Source: Hydrogenivirga caldilitoris
GTDB taxonomy: Bacteria; Aquificota; Aquificia; Aquificales; Aquificaceae
Length of the DNA stretch: 64,000 nt
Direction of reading: 5' to 3'
Assembly: GCF_003664005.1 (NCBI RefSeq)
Contig: NZ_RCCJ01000001.1
Span: 1,488,001 to 1,552,000 of the forward strand
A program made the translations under genes and the position numbers. The notes under the pieces are model-generated. The model saw only the letters and a list, made by a program, of their open reading frames with translations, was not told where the DNA came from and did not search any database. Shown here one piece after another: positions 2,687 through 46,478 of the stretch (its first letter is position 1; each line of letters opens with the position of its first letter).

Positions 2687-2716
2687 TTGCGAATTATTAT
2701 CAGTTATGCATATTAT
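2687..2716 (+). promoter_or_regulatory. Candidate promoter of the cupredoxin / peroxidase operon
   Basis: TTGCGA (2687-2692), an 18-bp spacer and TATTAT (2711-2716) lie in the AT-rich 168-bp gap between pheT and the redox operon, just downstream of the palindrome. The match is only moderate, and other AT-rich hexamers are nearby. Confidence 0.3.
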
Positions 2717-2749
2717 CATAACAAGAATAGATATCAGGAGGGTGGCAAC

Positions 2750-3502
2750 ATGAAAGAAGTTAAGGCGGCACTCGTAGCGACTCTTTTATCCTTGTCTGCC
2801 ACGGCGATGTCCGTAGAAGAGAAAGGGCACTACAAGTTCAGGTACGTAAAGCATTTCCAAAGCTCTGTGACCCTTGCAAAAGCCACAAGTTCGGGAATCG
2901 TTGAAGGTAAGGTCGTTTACGTGGGTAAGAGGAAGCTGGAGAACAGGAAAAAACTTATAACAAAGGATAAGGAAGTGTGTGGAACAGGTTACAAGATTGA
3001 TGAAGTTTACGTTGTATCCGATGAAGGTGGTGTTAAAAACGCCGTCGTATTCATTGAGGGAGCGGGAAATCCCCCCAAAGAAACCGTAAAGCTCGTACAG
3101 GAGAAGTGTGAATTCCATCCCAGGGTCATAGCTATGGGTGCAGGGTCCACGCTGGAGGTGGTAAACAACGACACAGTAAAACATGAGGCTAACGGTGTGC
3201 AAGACTTTGAAACCATATTTCAGCTATCACAGCATAAGAAGGGTATGGTTGACAGGGTTGAGCTAAAAAAGCCCGGAGTGGTTGAGGTAACCTGCAACAT
3301 ACACGGGTGGATGAAAGCTTGGGCTGTGGTTATAGACAGCCCATACTACGCGGTAACCGATGAGAAGGGGAGCTTCAAGATAAGTGGATTACCTCCGGGA
3401 AACTACAAGCTCAGGCTATGGCACGAAGGTTTTGGAGAGAAAGCCCTTAACGTGAAGGTAGAAGAGGGTAAGCCCACAAGCGTAGTCTTTGAGCTCAGGT
3501 AG
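2750..3502 (+). CDS. Exported cupredoxin-like protein with carboxypeptidase-regulatory-like domain
   Basis: This 250-residue protein has a signal peptide (residues 1-20, ending near SATAMS). It then has a cupredoxin-like region in which H145, C182, H185 and M188 (motif CNIHGWM) match a type 1 copper site. A C-terminal beta-sandwich starts near residue 199 (DEKGSFKISGLPPGNY), typical of the carboxypeptidase regulatory-like fold. Proteins of this build are often labelled methylamine-utilisation-like and sit beside MauG/cytochrome c peroxidase genes, as here. The start ATG at 2750 is chosen for its AGGAGGGTGG site; an upstream in-frame extension lacks signal-peptide logic. It is probably a periplasmic electron carrier or substrate of the next gene's product. 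First gene of a four-gene operon. Confidence 0.75.
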   Translation: MKEVKAALVATLLSLSATAMSVEEKGHYKFRYVKHFQSSVTLAKATSSGIVEGKVVYVGKRKLENRKKLITKDKEVCGTGYKIDEVYVVSDEGGVKNAVVFIEGAGNPPKETVKLVQEKCEFHPRVIAMGAGSTLEVVNNDTVKHEANGVQDFETIFQLSQHKKGMVDRVELKKPGVVEVTCNIHGWMKAWAVVIDSPYYAVTDEKGSFKISGLPPGNYKLRLWHEGFGEKALNVKVEEGKPTSVVFELR

Positions 3503-3512
3503 GAGGGTAGAA

Positions 3513-4631
3513 ATGAAAAAGGGTATTCTTTTTGCCTCTCTGGTAGGCATACTTTTCACACTCGGAAGCGCAGATTCAGCTAAAAGACCTAACATAAGTC
3601 CTTTACCAGACAAGCCACCAGAACCCAAAGATAATCCGAGCACACCTGTTAAGGTAGAGCTTGGCAAACTCTTGTATTTTGACCCGAGGCTCTCCGGAGA
3701 TGGAAGTACCTCCTGTGCTACATGCCACGACCCTAACCAGGGATGGGCAAAGAAGAGGTTTATGTCTCCAGCCTATCCCGAGAACAAACATTTCAGACAC
3801 TCACCTACGGTACTGAACGCAGCATACAACACCCTCATGTTTTGGGATGGAAGGGCAAAAAGCCTTGAAGAACAGGCAAAAGGTCCAATAAAGTCTCCCT
3901 TTGAGATGAACCTAAACTATGACCTCTTGGAAGAGAGGCTGAAGAAGATACCCAAGTACCGTGAGCTTTTTTCACGAGCTTTCCCTGGGGAGAAGAATCC
4001 GGTGAACATAGAGAACGTAGTCAAAGCCATAGCAGCCTTTGAAAGGACCATCGTATGTAACGACTCTCCCTTTGACCTATACATGAAGGGAGACAAGAAG
4101 GCCATGGACGAGGTTCAGGTAAAAGGAATGGAACTGTTCGTAGGAAAGGCGGGCTGCGTACAATGCCATAACGGTCCTAACTTTACAGACAACAAATTTC
4201 ACGTAACTGGAGTACCAAAGAACAGAGTTGAAGATGAAACCCTCGTGAGGGTAACAAGAAACTTCGTTTTAAGGGAGCACGGTTTTAAAGACCCGGATAA
4301 GATAGACAGAGACCTGGGAAGGTACTTCATAACTAAAGATGAGAGAGATAAGGGCTCCTTTAAGACACCGACGCTTAGGAACGTATCCCTTACTCCACCC
4401 TATATGCATAACGGCGTATTCAAGAGTTTGAGGGAGGTGGTTGAGTTCTACAACCAGGGAGGCGGAAATGTTCCCAACAAGGACCCGCTGTTAAAACCCC
4501 TGAACCTGAGTGAGGAAGAAAAGGAAGCCCTTGTGGCTTTCCTTGAAGCTTTGACCTGCAACACGGTTCCTCAGGTAGAGGAGCCTGAACTTCCAAATTA
4601 TGAAGGAGAAACTGCAAAGGGAGGTGGTTGA
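3513..4631 (+). CDS. Di-heme cytochrome c peroxidase (CcpA/MauG family), exported
   Basis: The 372-residue protein has a cleavable signal peptide (about 1-20) and two CXXCH heme sites, C68-ATCH and C215-VQCH. The family signature TPTLRNVSLTPPYMHNG is near the C-terminus. Such enzymes reduce hydrogen peroxide in the periplasm using electrons from cytochromes or cupredoxins; MauG relatives instead oxidise protein side chains. The ATG at 3513 has AGGAGGG upstream. The gene follows the cupredoxin gene by 10 bp and is followed by a phosphoesterase gene 1 bp after its stop, so co-transcription is clear. Whether it is a true peroxidase or a MauG-like modifier cannot be decided by eye. Confidence 0.9.
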   Translation: MKKGILFASLVGILFTLGSADSAKRPNISPLPDKPPEPKDNPSTPVKVELGKLLYFDPRLSGDGSTSCATCHDPNQGWAKKRFMSPAYPENKHFRHSPTVLNAAYNTLMFWDGRAKSLEEQAKGPIKSPFEMNLNYDLLEERLKKIPKYRELFSRAFPGEKNPVNIENVVKAIAAFERTIVCNDSPFDLYMKGDKKAMDEVQVKGMELFVGKAGCVQCHNGPNFTDNKFHVTGVPKNRVEDETLVRVTRNFVLREHGFKDPDKIDRDLGRYFITKDERDKGSFKTPTLRNVSLTPPYMHNGVFKSLREVVEFYNQGGGNVPNKDPLLKPLNLSEEEKEALVAFLEALTCNTVPQVEEPELPNYEGETAKGGG

Positions 4632-4632
4632 T

Positions 4633-5652
4633 ATGAAGATAAGCAGGCGTCAACTCATCAAGGTATCAGCAAAAGCTGGTATGGCAGCATTCACCGCTTC
4701 TGCCCTATCACCGCTTATGGGTGTGGTGAATGTGGTGGAGGCAAAAAGCTCCAGAAAGAGCAAGATAAGCCCCTTTAATTTTGTGGTAATAGGGGACACT
4801 CACCTCTATGAAATGCCCGACCACAGGTTTGATAAAACCTTCTCCAGAGCTATTAACGACATACTTAATATGAACCCTAAGCCAGACTTCGTCCTCTTTA
4901 TAGGAGACCTTGCCCAATTCGGGAAGGTAGCTGAACTTGAAAAGGGAAAAAGGTTCTTGGATAAGCTTGATAAAGCCGGCATAAAGTACTTCATAATCCC
5001 TGGCGAGCATGACTGGTACCTTGACATGGGGGAGACCTGGAGAAAGATGTTTGGAAAACCATACTGGAGCTTTAATCACAGAGGGGTTCATTTCATAGGT
5101 ATGAACTCCATACTGGTGAGAGACTACTGGACTGCACGGAATATGTCTCCCGAAGAGAGGATGCTTGCCATAGCAGAACTTGAATGTCATATATGCGGGC
5201 TGTGGGGTGTAAGGGAAGAACAGCTTGAGTGGCTTGAAAGAGATGTTAAAAACCTCAGCCCAGATACACCTGTTGTTGTGTTCACCCACTCACCTCTCTG
5301 GAATTACTACCCAAGGTGGAACTTTCAGACGGAGGACGCCCCACAGATTAGGGAGATCCTTTCCAAGTTTGAAAAGGTGATAGCCATCCACGGACACGTC
5401 CATCAGGTTGTCTACAACAAAACAGGAAACATGGTCCACATAGGAAACCTTGCAACAGCTTGGCCCTGGCCCTACCCACCTGTTGAACTTCCCTATCCCA
5501 AGATAAGGATGCTTAGGGTTGACCCAGGTGATATATACGATGGTGTTGGCTTTGCAAGCACTTACATAGACGATACCTTCCTGGGAAAGATGAGGTATCA
5601 CACCTGGGCTGAGCTTATACCTGACGATTTGAAGGATGGTGTTCCACTTTGA
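4633..5652 (+). CDS. Tat-exported calcineurin-like metallophosphoesterase
   Basis: This 339-residue protein begins with a twin-arginine signal (SRRQLIK, residues 4-10, then a hydrophobic stretch). Metallophosphoesterase motifs follow in order: GDTH, GDLAQFG, GEHD in place of the usual GNHD/E, THSPLW and HGHVHQ. This predicts a dinuclear-metal phosphoesterase folded in the cytoplasm and exported to the periplasm. The start ATG at 4633 has GGGAGGTGG upstream; an upstream in-frame ATG would bury the Tat signal. It lies between the di-heme peroxidase and a cytochrome c gene. Its substrate is unknown, and a phosphatase inside a redox operon is unusual. Confidence 0.85.
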   Translation: MKISRRQLIKVSAKAGMAAFTASALSPLMGVVNVVEAKSSRKSKISPFNFVVIGDTHLYEMPDHRFDKTFSRAINDILNMNPKPDFVLFIGDLAQFGKVAELEKGKRFLDKLDKAGIKYFIIPGEHDWYLDMGETWRKMFGKPYWSFNHRGVHFIGMNSILVRDYWTARNMSPEERMLAIAELECHICGLWGVREEQLEWLERDVKNLSPDTPVVVFTHSPLWNYYPRWNFQTEDAPQIREILSKFEKVIAIHGHVHQVVYNKTGNMVHIGNLATAWPWPYPPVELPYPKIRMLRVDPGDIYDGVGFASTYIDDTFLGKMRYHTWAELIPDDLKDGVPL

Positions 5653-5668
5653 TTAGGGAGGTGGTGAT

Positions 5669-6142
5669 ATGAGAGTCTTAAAGGCAGGATTCATCTTGGG
5701 CGCTGGCGTTTTGGCGGGGCTTTCCATAAGCCTCTTTATGAACGTAGCTGAAGCAAGGAAACCCTTCTCTCAGCAAGACCTAAAGCTGATGAATGAGGAA
5801 CTATTAGCTCTCGTGAAGAAGGGAGATCAGCTCTGGCACGACCCAAAGCTTGGTAAGAATGGGCTTACCTGTGCCAACTGTCACCCAGATGGGGCAAACT
5901 CAAATCCTCACACCTTTCCAAAGTTTCAGGACAACGTTGGCAAAGTTGCAACCCTAAGGGAGATGATAAACTGGTGCATAAAGAAACCCCTGGAGGGAAA
6001 GGAACTTCCTGAAGACAGTGAAGAGATGAAAGCTCTTGAAGCTTATGCGATTTACATGTACCGTGGATATCCTCTCAAGCCTGGAGATAATACGAGAGAG
6101 TATCCACCTGTAAAGGTAGAATCTGGTGCAGGTTACCCCTAA
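5669..6142 (+). CDS. Exported monoheme cytochrome c, SoxA/TsdA-like
   Basis: The 157-residue protein has an N-terminal signal or anchor (residues 7-29) and one heme site, C68-ANCH. After the heme site the pattern TFPKF...TLREMINWCIKKPL...DSEEMKALEAY resembles the cytochrome domain shared by SoxA and TsdA. It is preceded by GGGAGGTGG and ends the operon. It likely carries electrons to or from the di-heme peroxidase and cupredoxin. A related monoheme protein is encoded at 57198-57641. Confidence 0.8.
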   Translation: MRVLKAGFILGAGVLAGLSISLFMNVAEARKPFSQQDLKLMNEELLALVKKGDQLWHDPKLGKNGLTCANCHPDGANSNPHTFPKFQDNVGKVATLREMINWCIKKPLEGKELPEDSEEMKALEAYAIYMYRGYPLKPGDNTREYPPVKVESGAGYP

Positions 6143-43048: not shown

Positions 43049-43177
43049 TTAAAGCCCTTCAATCCAGTTGAGTATCTTGCCTACAACTTCTTCATCTTTG
43101 CCAAGTTGTCTAAGAAGTGGGGTATGAGACCGACAAAGTTTCTCTACTATTTCAAAACCGGAAGACCGCTGGGAACC
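43049..43177 (-). pseudogene. Fragment of a lost gene between the MauG-like gene and asd
   Basis: A minus-strand frame open from 43177 down to a TAA at 43049-43051 reads like real protein, ending ...LGKDEEVVGKILNWIEGL. It has no ATG, GTG or TTG start and enters from a different frame than the overlapping MauG-like gene. It looks like the C-terminus of a gene whose front part was removed. The source family is not recognised. Chance is possible given only about 42 codons. Confidence 0.35.
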
Positions 43178-44454
43178 CTATCGGGTATGACTTTTTCAAG
43201 CTCATAAACCTGCGGACTCGTAAGGGAGTTGAGGAAGGCTACGAGATAATCAACCTCCTGGGATGTGAGTTGGACAGGTTCTATATCAAGGGTTGATAGT
43301 ATTTCCGTTATGGTCGCTTCGTCATTTTTCAGGGTAGAGGCGAGTTCGGGGGGAAGCCCGTTCTCTATCGGGTCGTAGTTACGAAGGTAGAACTCAGGGT
43401 TTGTGTGATGAAGAATTGCTTTCCTCAGGTCTCTATACGCTCCGTTGTGGAAGTAGGGGGAGGTAACCGCAACGTTTCTAAGGGGAGGTGTTCTGAACTT
43501 GAACTTATCCTCCTCTCTTCCGGTGACGTTGAACCTTCCGTAGTCAAGCCCGTTTCCGTCCTTCCCCGGACCGAACTGGGGGACTCCTATGTTGTGAAAC
43601 TTCTGGTCGGTAAAGAGCGTCCCGCTGTGGCAGGTGTAACATTTTGCCTTTCCATAAAAGAGCAGTGCCCCTACCTTAGCTTCGTATGAGAGGACATCAT
43701 CGTCTCCCTTCAGATACCTGTCCCACGGGCTATCCGTGAGCGTGAAAGCCTCCTTTTCAAACTCCGCAATGGCGTTAGCGTAGTCCGCTATGGTGTATGT
43801 TCTGTCTCCGTAAGCTGTTCTGAATAAGTCTCTGTATTCTGGTATAGAAAGGAGCCTGTTCATTATTCCGCTCCATATAGCGGGGAAGTCATTATCACCA
43901 ATCTGGGCAAGCTCGTTTTGAGTTCCATCGGAGGCAACGTCCCCAGCCCTTCCCCTCATCTCGTCCCTTGAGGTCGGCGGAAAAAGAGCCTGAGCGGCGA
44001 GGACGTCCTCAATCCCATCGGGCAAAAGGTCTTCGGCAGGCGTTGATAACCTTCCTTTTAGCTCTTCAACCCTCGCGTCCCAGAACATCGTCCTCCAGTC
44101 CTCATGCCCTCTGTTGAATATCTCAGGAGCGTTTCTGGGGATGAAGGGTCTTCCAACCCCGGGTCTTCTCTCAAGGCACTCTCCGCTCCCTTTGGTTCCA
44201 ACAGATAAGGGAAGGCAGTCCCCTGTTCCAAATCTCGGGTCGTGGCATGTAGCACAGGAAATATCCTTATTCCCACCGATGACCTTGTCAAAGAAGAGCA
44301 TCCTCCCGAGGGCTACCTTATCGGGGTCAGTTTCGGGTTTCTCTATTGGTTTTAGCCCGTGCTTTTTAATGAGACCCCTTAGCTCAGAATCAACAGGCTC
44401 CTCCCCGCCGCAGGAGAGGAGTAGGGAGAAGAGAATAACTACCAAAAAGAACAT
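43147..44454 (-). CDS. Di-heme c-type enzyme of the MauG/cytochrome c peroxidase family, lipoprotein
   Basis: The 435-residue protein has a lipoprotein signal (lipobox LLLSC, cysteine 15). Its two heme sites are C67-ATCH and C272-YTCH, and the family segment TPPLRNVAVTSPYFHNGAY follows. It is longer than the peroxidase at 3513-4631, with an insertion between the hemes (about residues 75-200) including two extra cysteines. Family members either reduce peroxide or oxidise residues of a partner protein. It starts 2 nt after an exported lipoprotein gene, hinting at an enzyme/substrate pair. Its role is not fixed by sequence. Confidence 0.88.
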   Translation of the reverse strand: MFFLVVILFSLLLSCGGEEPVDSELRGLIKKHGLKPIEKPETDPDKVALGRMLFFDKVIGGNKDISCATCHDPRFGTGDCLPLSVGTKGSGECLERRPGVGRPFIPRNAPEIFNRGHEDWRTMFWDARVEELKGRLSTPAEDLLPDGIEDVLAAQALFPPTSRDEMRGRAGDVASDGTQNELAQIGDNDFPAIWSGIMNRLLSIPEYRDLFRTAYGDRTYTIADYANAIAEFEKEAFTLTDSPWDRYLKGDDDVLSYEAKVGALLFYGKAKCYTCHSGTLFTDQKFHNIGVPQFGPGKDGNGLDYGRFNVTGREEDKFKFRTPPLRNVAVTSPYFHNGAYRDLRKAILHHTNPEFYLRNYDPIENGLPPELASTLKNDEATITEILSTLDIEPVQLTSQEVDYLVAFLNSLTSPQVYELEKVIPDRVPSGLPVLK

Positions 44455-44456
44455 GG

Positions 44457-45548
44457 TTAGGGTGTGCAGGATACCTTTTCTATGTAGAGGGCGGGTATCT
44501 CATCGTTTGTAGAAGGTGGAGTATTTGAAGCTCCCGGCGGAGATTCAAAGGAGTGGTTTTGAAAATCTGTCCCTGGTCCATCAAACTTTATGTAAAATGA
44601 AGATATGTTTGTCATCCAGACTTTATATTGTGTGCCCGTATCAGGATCGCATGGACTAACATAAAAGGGATTACTGCCAGCCTGAAGCTGTGTGCCGTTG
44701 TTAAAGTAAGTATCGCTTGTTCCATCTGAAAAAAAGGTCAGTGTTCCATCGGTGTATAAAGCAACATCTCCGCTATTGCCGAGAGTGGCATCAACTTGTT
44801 GAGCTTGGTAATTGCTTGATGAATCTTTTAATCCGATACTTGGGGTTGCATTGCTCACATACCAGCCTGCAAACCTTGAAAACGTTGTTGTATCCACTAT
44901 ACCTGCCACAGTGTATTCAGATGGTGTTCCACCCGTTGTATCTCTAATTTCCCAGATGCATGCCCACCAATTCTGATAAGTTTGCGTATCCACCTTGACG
45001 TCAACCCTCGGAACTACGGTTATGAAAGAGGCAAGTATATTCCCTGTTGGATCAGGACTACTCGGATTTCCAGATATGGCACCTCCCAAAGCCCGCCCAA
45101 AAGCCAGCGCTAACTCTCTACTTGCCCACCCACAATTTGATTTTGATTTTTTGTCAAGATTTATGTTGTAAGTTTTGCTTCCTATAGTCACTGTCCCGCT
45201 TATCTTGTCTCCGGATATGTTCCCATCAAAGTTCACTGTAACAGATTGGTCATTTAAATCGTTCCCGCTCACTTGACCTGTAAAGGTGGTTCCGCTTGCA
45301 GTTCCGCTGTAACTTCCTCCCCAGATATAGCCAGATACCCAAGCCTTTCCGGTAACTTGAGCACCATTTTGATTTATTTCTAAGCATATTGGACCTTCTG
45401 CCGGACTTCCAGATGTAGGTCCAGATTGATCAGTATAAGACCCTTCCCAGACTCCTGATATTGTCTCTCCACCACCGCCCCCTCCTCCGCATCCAAACAG
45501 AGCCAGAGAAACTAACGATACTCCTGCAAGTAATCTTTTACCACTCAT
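44457..45548 (-). CDS. Lipoprotein with polyglycine linker, unknown, partner of the MauG-like enzyme
   Basis: This protein of about 363 residues has a lipobox (ALFGC) followed by seven glycines. Next comes a beta-rich domain (SGVWEGSYTDQSG ... GTASGTTFTGQVSG) like a lipocalin/calycin sandwich. The C-terminal half is rich in Trp, Tyr and Thr, with WWACIWEIRD and four more cysteines. Base composition is clearly more A/T-rich and codon choice differs from neighbours, suggesting transfer. GGGAGGTG precedes the ATG at 45548. It ends 2 nt before the di-heme gene. No family recognised. Confidence 0.7.
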   Translation of the reverse strand: MSGKRLLAGVSLVSLALFGCGGGGGGGETISGVWEGSYTDQSGPTSGSPAEGPICLEINQNGAQVTGKAWVSGYIWGGSYSGTASGTTFTGQVSGNDLNDQSVTVNFDGNISGDKISGTVTIGSKTYNINLDKKSKSNCGWASRELALAFGRALGGAISGNPSSPDPTGNILASFITVVPRVDVKVDTQTYQNWWACIWEIRDTTGGTPSEYTVAGIVDTTTFSRFAGWYVSNATPSIGLKDSSSNYQAQQVDATLGNSGDVALYTDGTLTFFSDGTSDTYFNNGTQLQAGSNPFYVSPCDPDTGTQYKVWMTNISSFYIKFDGPGTDFQNHSFESPPGASNTPPSTNDEIPALYIEKVSCTP

Positions 45549-45620: not shown

Positions 45621-46478
45621 TTAAAAGTCAGTATTTATATCAATTCCGTTACATCCGTTCCCAACGGCTTTTCCGTGACCGCAGGAGGTGTAGTTCACAA
45701 CGACGTTCTGGCGCTCGGAAGGATTCTGGGAGCAGCTTGCATTTATCCTTATAGTCCCTCCCGCCGGTGTGTCTGCGTTCATACACATGCCCGACTGCCA
45801 GTTTTCAACAACAAACACGTATTTGTAGGAAGGTATCGCGGAGCACACTATCTTTCCGTTCCACACTCCCCTGTCCCATCTCAAACCCGTGGGTCTCTTA
45901 GGCTTGAAGGTCAAATTTTCCGCCTCGCAGGTTATCCCGTAAACCGTCCAGAAATACCTCTTAAAGAGGTATTCGTCCTTGGCAAAATGGTATTCCGAGT
46001 CTATGTCAAGCACGTAGTAGTCGTATCCTCCGTACTTGAGAGGTTCCCGTGAACACCCCGCAGGGGTAAATATTCCCGTGCAAAAATCAGCCCCACTATA
46101 AGGGTTGCCGTCGTTGTTATCTCTGACGCTGACCCTTCCTGAAAGCTCATAACCCCTGAAGTTGCACTTAAAGGTGTAGACTACGTGAACGGGAAATCCG
46201 TCTCTGTCTGCGTCCGTTGGTTGTCCTGTAAAAGTCCCCGTGCAGTTCCTCCTTATCTCCTCAGGCGTAAGACCGAGTCTGTGACCAATGTTTACGTCAA
46301 GCCTTATATCGGGGACATAGACTTCAACCGAAGAGATGCTGTAATGGAAGTTGTGTCCGAACTCGGTCATCAAAAGAACTTTCTCAAGGGGAAATTGAGC
46401 GGCAGGGTTCTGAGCCTTCAAACTTCCAACAGCTAACAGAAAAGCCGCTACACCGAGGGAAAGCCTCCCGTCCCTCAA
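45621..46478 (-). CDS. Exported cysteine-rich protein, unknown
   Basis: The 285-residue protein has a signal peptide (about 1-22, ending GSLKAQ) and a mature part with about ten cysteines, consistent with disulfides in the periplasm or outside. Beta-rich segments alternate with short aromatic patches (YFWTVYGITCEAE, YKYVFVVENW). The start is TTG at 46478, overlapping the mqnC stop and backed by GGAGG 5 nt upstream. It is co-translated with mqnC but has no evident link to quinone synthesis. No family recognised. Confidence 0.65.
   Translation of the reverse strand: MRDGRLSLGVAAFLLAVGSLKAQNPAAQFPLEKVLLMTEFGHNFHYSISSVEVYVPDIRLDVNIGHRLGLTPEEIRRNCTGTFTGQPTDADRDGFPVHVVYTFKCNFRGYELSGRVSVRDNNDGNPYSGADFCTGIFTPAGCSREPLKYGGYDYYVLDIDSEYHFAKDEYLFKRYFWTVYGITCEAENLTFKPKRPTGLRWDRGVWNGKIVCSAIPSYKYVFVVENWQSGMCMNADTPAGGTIRINASCSQNPSERQNVVVNYTSCGHGKAVGNGCNGIDINTDF

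Follow-up and report, generated by a model that had tools for sequence, protein, structure and literature searches.

The 64,000-nucleotide stretch analyzed here (the window), part of a 1.75-Mb Aquificota chromosome, encodes a di-heme enzyme of the His type, whose branch is uncharacterised, next to an orphan lipoprotein partner. We tentatively favor the reading that the enzyme is a membrane-anchored envelope di-heme peroxidase of the His/His type that is co-expressed with this two-domain lipoprotein. The lipoprotein gene (44457–45548, minus strand; 363 aa with residues counted from the ATG at 45548; nine Trp, six Cys, and one His) is followed after 2 nt by the enzyme gene (43147–44454, minus strand; 435 aa), and all features of the two genes given below are on the minus strand. 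Both ORFs carry a lipobox, in agreement with the first-pass annotation, which had described an exported lipoprotein ending 2 nt before a di-heme lipoprotein enzyme. The lipoprotein had also been called Trp- and Cys-rich; among the 59 ORFs of the window, its Trp content was indeed high (2.5% vs. 0.9%, rank 4 of 59), whereas its Cys content was only moderate (1.6% vs. 0.8%, rank 10). The proposed resemblance to the MbnP/MbnH layout holds; in the MbnP/MbnH pair that we fetched, the partner gene comes first and the genes overlap by 8 nt. The neighbors of the pair are mqnC, lipoprotein genes, and asd, and neither a mau operon nor methylamine dehydrogenase genes were present. Just upstream of the lipoprotein gene, 45621–46478 (minus strand) encodes an exported Cys-containing protein of 285 aa with no Pfam match; within the genus, its homologs were found in G000, G002, G005, and G016.

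The enzyme matched PF03150 (CCP_MauG) with 134.5 bits in a profile search (cut-off, 25.6; E = 6e-39), and it is with certainty a member of this family, a di-heme c-type enzyme of the peroxidase superfamily and a predicted lipoprotein. The lipobox Cys15 (LLLSC; 44410–44412) was invariant in six orthologs. The first heme motif, CATCH (residues 67–71; 44242–44256), corresponds to the peroxidatic heme, and the second is CYTCH (residues 272–276; 43627–43641). In the alignment, Trp125 (44080–44082) corresponds to the inter-heme Trp found in MauG and bCCPs, Gln155 (43990–43992) to the conserved distal-pocket Gln103 of MauG, and Glu165 (43960–43962) to the acid-base Glu113 of MauG. Since the distal residues Gln155, Pro159, and Glu165 as well as Trp125 were conserved across the aligned Aquificota enzymes, the peroxidatic site looks intact. 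An equivalent of MauG Trp199 was also considered and was dropped, the position not being conserved in the comparison MauG. Separately, Trp244 in an SPWD motif was Trp in all eight Aquificota enzymes and Phe in every other CCP_MauG protein compared.

Where MauG has its axial ligand Tyr294, the enzyme has His350 (43405–43407), which was invariant in its clade, that is, in 13 proteins comprising eight Aquificota orthologs, four Roseobacter enzymes, and one protein of an Hxs cluster. This position is Tyr in MauG, MbnH, a Rhizobium enzyme, and the second di-heme enzyme of the window, and Met in classical bCCPs, so that the Met ligand of the second heme typical of the latter is replaced by His350 here. 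As His349 is Ala in the Hxs-cluster protein, His350 is the more likely of the two to be the ligand. In PDB, the C-terminal stretch of the enzyme matched 3orv best, an entry that has His where other MauG entries read Tyr. In a tree, the His-type proteins, including the Roseobacter enzymes and the Hxs-cluster protein, formed a separate clade with 100/100 support, although the Hxs and MbnH rows were long-branched.

To the curated subfamily models, the enzyme scored 131.6 bits for TIGR03791 (MauG; cut-off, 443.85), 138.6 bits for TIGR04039 (MbnH; cut-off, 362.85), and 318.8–319.1 bits for TIGR03981 (cut-off, 340). All three values are below the cut-offs, and TIGR03981 is still the best-scoring curated family. 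The controls, MauG of a mau operon (554.1), MbnH encoded beside MbnP (503.3), and the Hxs-cluster protein (367), each exceeded their own cut-off, and the models thus told the subfamilies apart well. The orthologs scored 307.6–339.8 bits for TIGR03981 (340.2 with neighbors), that of G002 just reaching the cut-off. No hxsA, hxsB, or hxsC of a His-Xaa-Ser system was found in the window or, above background, in the genome, where the best HxsC score was 48 (cut-off, 267.9), equal to those of generic radical SAM proteins of control genomes.

The MauG-like chemistry that the first-pass annotation had assumed for the enzyme is thus not supported, because of His350, the low scores for the MauG and MbnH models, and the separate clade. 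In BthA, the Y463H exchange removed the near-infrared bis-Fe(IV) feature, yet the mutant still reduced H2O2 when given an external donor; the bis-Fe(IV) feature was reportedly lost in MauG Y294H as well (PMC6405878). Since BthA Y463H kept peroxidase turnover without bis-Fe(IV), peroxidase activity is, by analogy with these mutants of other enzymes, more likely for the window enzyme than tryptophan oxidation via bis-Fe(IV). Enzymes that carry this His naturally may behave differently from such mutants. For RoxA and PA2077/PA2078, a distant His is likewise listed as a ligand of the second heme, and PA2077/PA2078 are oxygenases or diol synthases (PMC4496055); other oxidative chemistry is possible for the window enzyme because bis-His second hemes are listed for PA2077/PA2078.

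A second cluster lies at 2687–6142 (plus strand). Its Tyr-type di-heme enzyme (3516–4631) scored 272.9 bits for TIGR03791 and 257.5 bits for TIGR04039, both below cut-off, and is much nearer to MauG than the 43147–44454 enzyme. It is neighbored by genes for an exported CarboxypepD_reg/cupredoxin-like protein, a metallophosphatase, and a SoxA/TsdA-type cytochrome c. If the window encodes a MauG-like modifier, the 3516–4631 enzyme is the better candidate.

The lipoprotein had no match in Pfam above cut-offs, in NCBIfam, or in PDB by sequence or profile, and no relatives of it were found on plasmids. Its lipobox Cys20 (ALFGC; 45489–45491) is followed by a Gly-rich tether and two modeled domains. 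The N-terminal domain (residues about 31–134; 45147–45458) has eight predicted strands, and the C-terminal domain (residues about 135–363; 44460–45146) is confidently modeled as two helices followed by beta strands. The AlphaFold model of the whole protein (pLDDT of 77) comprises an N-terminal domain of eight strands and a beta domain at the C terminus; modeled alone, the C-terminal domain reached a pLDDT of 86.5. In Foldseek searches against PDB, the N-terminal domain had no usable match (GFP, TM-scores of 0.10–0.15; fatty-acid-binding proteins, TMt of 0.39–0.47 with rmsd of 6–12 Å), and because of these poor matches we call it just barrel-like. The C-terminal domain had no match, and MopE, CorA, and MbnP were absent from the first 50 entries. 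Homology to MbnP was rejected: the lipoprotein gave no TIGR04052 match at E ≤ 1 and an hhalign probability of 0.65%, while a control MbnP scored 152.6 (cut-off, 140), in line with the earlier impression that the protein does not look like MbnP. A TIGR04052 search of 12 genomes also gave no match, a result of little weight since its built-in controls were silent too.

The proposed target of the enzyme was a patch reading WWACIWEIRD. In the lipoprotein, WWACIWEIR (residues 194–202; 44943–44969) lies within a predicted long strand. Ten homologs share seven Trp (34, 70, 76, 141, 194, 195, and 199) and five Cys (the lipobox Cys20, 55, 139, 300, and 361), so that Trp194, Trp195, and Trp199 of the patch are invariant and Cys197 is not. 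Four genomes in which the lipoprotein occurs but the enzyme does not (G038, G044, G051, and G105) have retained all seven Trp, the patch included, and no Trp was specific to the enzyme-linked lipoproteins among the ten homologs. These four genomes, with a listed completeness of 100% for G044 and G051, contained no His- or Tyr-type di-heme enzyme that could act in trans: their CCP_MauG proteins were Met-type bCCPs in nine of nine cases, indicating that no MauG-type enzyme acts on the lipoprotein there. As the Trp are equally kept without the enzyme and none is specific to linked partners, the patch looks structural, judging from sequence conservation, rather than like an oxidation target.

True MauG/MbnH-type tryptophan oxidation of the patch, perhaps making a kynurenine copper site, is therefore very improbable in our judgment. 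The layout of the pair, the superfamily membership, and the conserved inter-heme Trp and distal residues of the enzyme are what it has in its favor, against the His at the Tyr294 position, model scores far below those of real members (554 and 503 bits), and a Trp patch that is invariant in genomes without such an enzyme. The copper site of CorA/MopE consists of two His and kynurenine (PMC3912023), whereas the lipoprotein homologs have 0–3 His each with no conserved position among the ten. A MopE/CorA-type copper site was accordingly rejected as a candidate, and copper binding of that type is unlikely for want of a conserved His.

We surveyed 136 Aquificota genomes, including 17 of the genus of the window, and found the long enzyme in eight and the C-terminal domain of the lipoprotein in ten. 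Within the genus, five genomes had both genes, none had only one, and 12 had neither; in all five, the genes were adjacent (in G010 via L004), 1–2 nt apart or with a short overlap, and the gap or overlap was at most about 20 nt. Linkage in the genus exceeds what chance would give. Outside the genus, one genome had both genes, two had only the enzyme (G055 and G097, with unrelated neighbors), four had only the lipoprotein (likewise with unrelated neighbors), and 112 had neither (Fisher p = 0.12, uncorrected for kinship and not significant). The naive phylum-wide p value for co-occurrence was 7e-7, nearly all of which came from one genus, and joint gain and loss is to be expected for two genes in one operon. 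The genome with both genes outside the genus (G096) belongs to another family; there, about 49 nt separate the lipoprotein stop from the end of its contig, the enzyme start lies 3 nt from the end of another contig, and the orientations match. The pair is probably adjacent in G096 across this contig break; adjacency is likely and unproven, because the contig ends do not overlap. The co-occurrence of homologous pairs, suggested earlier as a check, thus gives a mixed picture, with conserved linkage within the genus and loose coupling outside it.

Co-location may also be a coincidence, the site downstream of mqnC being a variable lipoprotein-gene slot that the enzyme merely shares. The slot is variable in the genus, since other genomes hold a different, unrelated lipoprotein family there (SDCNQ.GYDIYLGYY; L094:604–1425, L096:2–580, L098:2649–3122), and in G010 it holds this family (L004:5121–5939) plus the pair. 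Both genes were also found alone outside the genus. However, co-presence and co-absence were perfect within the genus, the spacing was close in all five genomes, and the probable adjacency in G096 concerns a locus that is not beside mqnC. On balance, we consider coincidence unlikely.

Another reading is that the two proteins form an enzyme/substrate pair without MauG chemistry, in which a His/His enzyme would oxidize the lipoprotein, at an aromatic or other side chain, once during envelope maturation. A dedicated operon with the partner gene first, as in MbnP/MbnH, MopE/SACCP, and CorA/CorB (PMC3621798, PMC3912023), is consistent with it, as is a His-type relative within an HxsA/HxsB/HxsC peptide-maturation cluster. 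In addition, Tyr127 and Tyr308 were invariant in the linked lipoproteins, whereas the four unlinked lipoproteins have Phe or Thr there, but these differences are weak and coincide with one deep branch. The occurrence of each gene without the other, the lack of any Trp specific to linked partners, and the loss of bis-Fe(IV) upon the Tyr-to-His change in BthA also argue against a substrate role. We regard such a pair as possible, if somewhat unlikely. The new enzyme/substrate pair of the first-pass annotation stands as a real gene pair and a possible partnership, without MauG-like tryptophan modification. A broader version, in which His/His CCP_MauG proteins would be a third functional branch beside the Met-type peroxidases and the Tyr-type MauG/MbnH and would oxidize dedicated partners (HxsA-type peptides and the window lipoprotein) without bis-Fe(IV), seems doubtful to us.

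In the peroxidase reading that we favor, the two genes would be expressed together as a small unit of the envelope, with the enzyme as a membrane-anchored di-heme c-type peroxidase from a His/His-ligated branch of the CCP_MauG superfamily. The first heme would react with H2O2, with His71 on the proximal side and Gln155, Pro159, and Glu165 on the distal side, and electrons would enter via the second heme, probably bis-His (His276 and His350), and then pass through Trp125. The lipoprotein, fast-evolving, two-domain, and presumably stabilized by disulfides, would be anchored in the same membrane and work with the enzyme, serving in docking, in ligand binding, or as an electron supplier. Against this reading, the same genome also encodes a Met-type bCCP, and the presence of another plain peroxidase would have to be explained. 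In addition, one His-type relative occurs in a peptide-maturation cluster, which argues for an ability of the His branch to act on proteins.

The label "MauG-like" has been given to many di-heme proteins and leads readers to assume tryptophan chemistry. By its residue at the Tyr294 position, the window enzyme is set apart from MauG/MbnH, and a different reaction is predicted for it. As a natural Y-to-H enzyme, it can readily be set beside the mutants MauG Y294H and BthA Y463H, and the genomes lacking the enzyme provide a natural control for claims on the lipoprotein tryptophans.

Compared with known systems, the enzyme shares with MauG the CCP_MauG fold family, the inter-heme Trp, and the distal Gln, Pro, and Glu, but Tyr294 is replaced by His and the mau operon is missing. 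The gene order is that of MbnP/MbnH (TIGR04052/TIGR04039), with the di-heme enzyme directly after its partner, although MbnH has the Tyr ligand. MopE/SACCP and CorA/CorB are also encoded as a partner together with a di-heme enzyme (PMC3621798, PMC3912023), whereas CorA and MopE bind copper through two His and a kynurenine, and the window lipoprotein lacks a conserved His and gave no match by sequence or by fold. RoxA and PA2077/PA2078, which act on rubber and fatty acids, share the His ligand proposed for the second heme; by way of difference, the window enzyme has trivial scores for the NCBIfam RoxA/RoxC models (<20 of 900–1000 bits) and conserves the peroxidase-type distal Glu. The Roseobacter "cytochrome c peroxidases" (Ruegeria, Phaeobacter, and Roseivivax plasmids) are 38–41% identical to the window enzyme and belong to the same His clade, but a lipoprotein partner does not adjoin them and their inter-heme Trp is replaced by His. 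The plasmid relatives L065, L066, L067, and L087 thereby combine this His with the His ligand, unlike MauG, MbnH, and bCCPs, and the Phaeobacter relative adjoins a CRTAC1-family gene. From TIGR03981, the His-Xaa-Ser system-associated MauG-like proteins, the enzyme differs in its score below cut-off, the lack of Hxs genes, and an identity of about 35% to the fetched example, yet it matches this family over its full length, has the same ligand-position His, and falls into the same clade.
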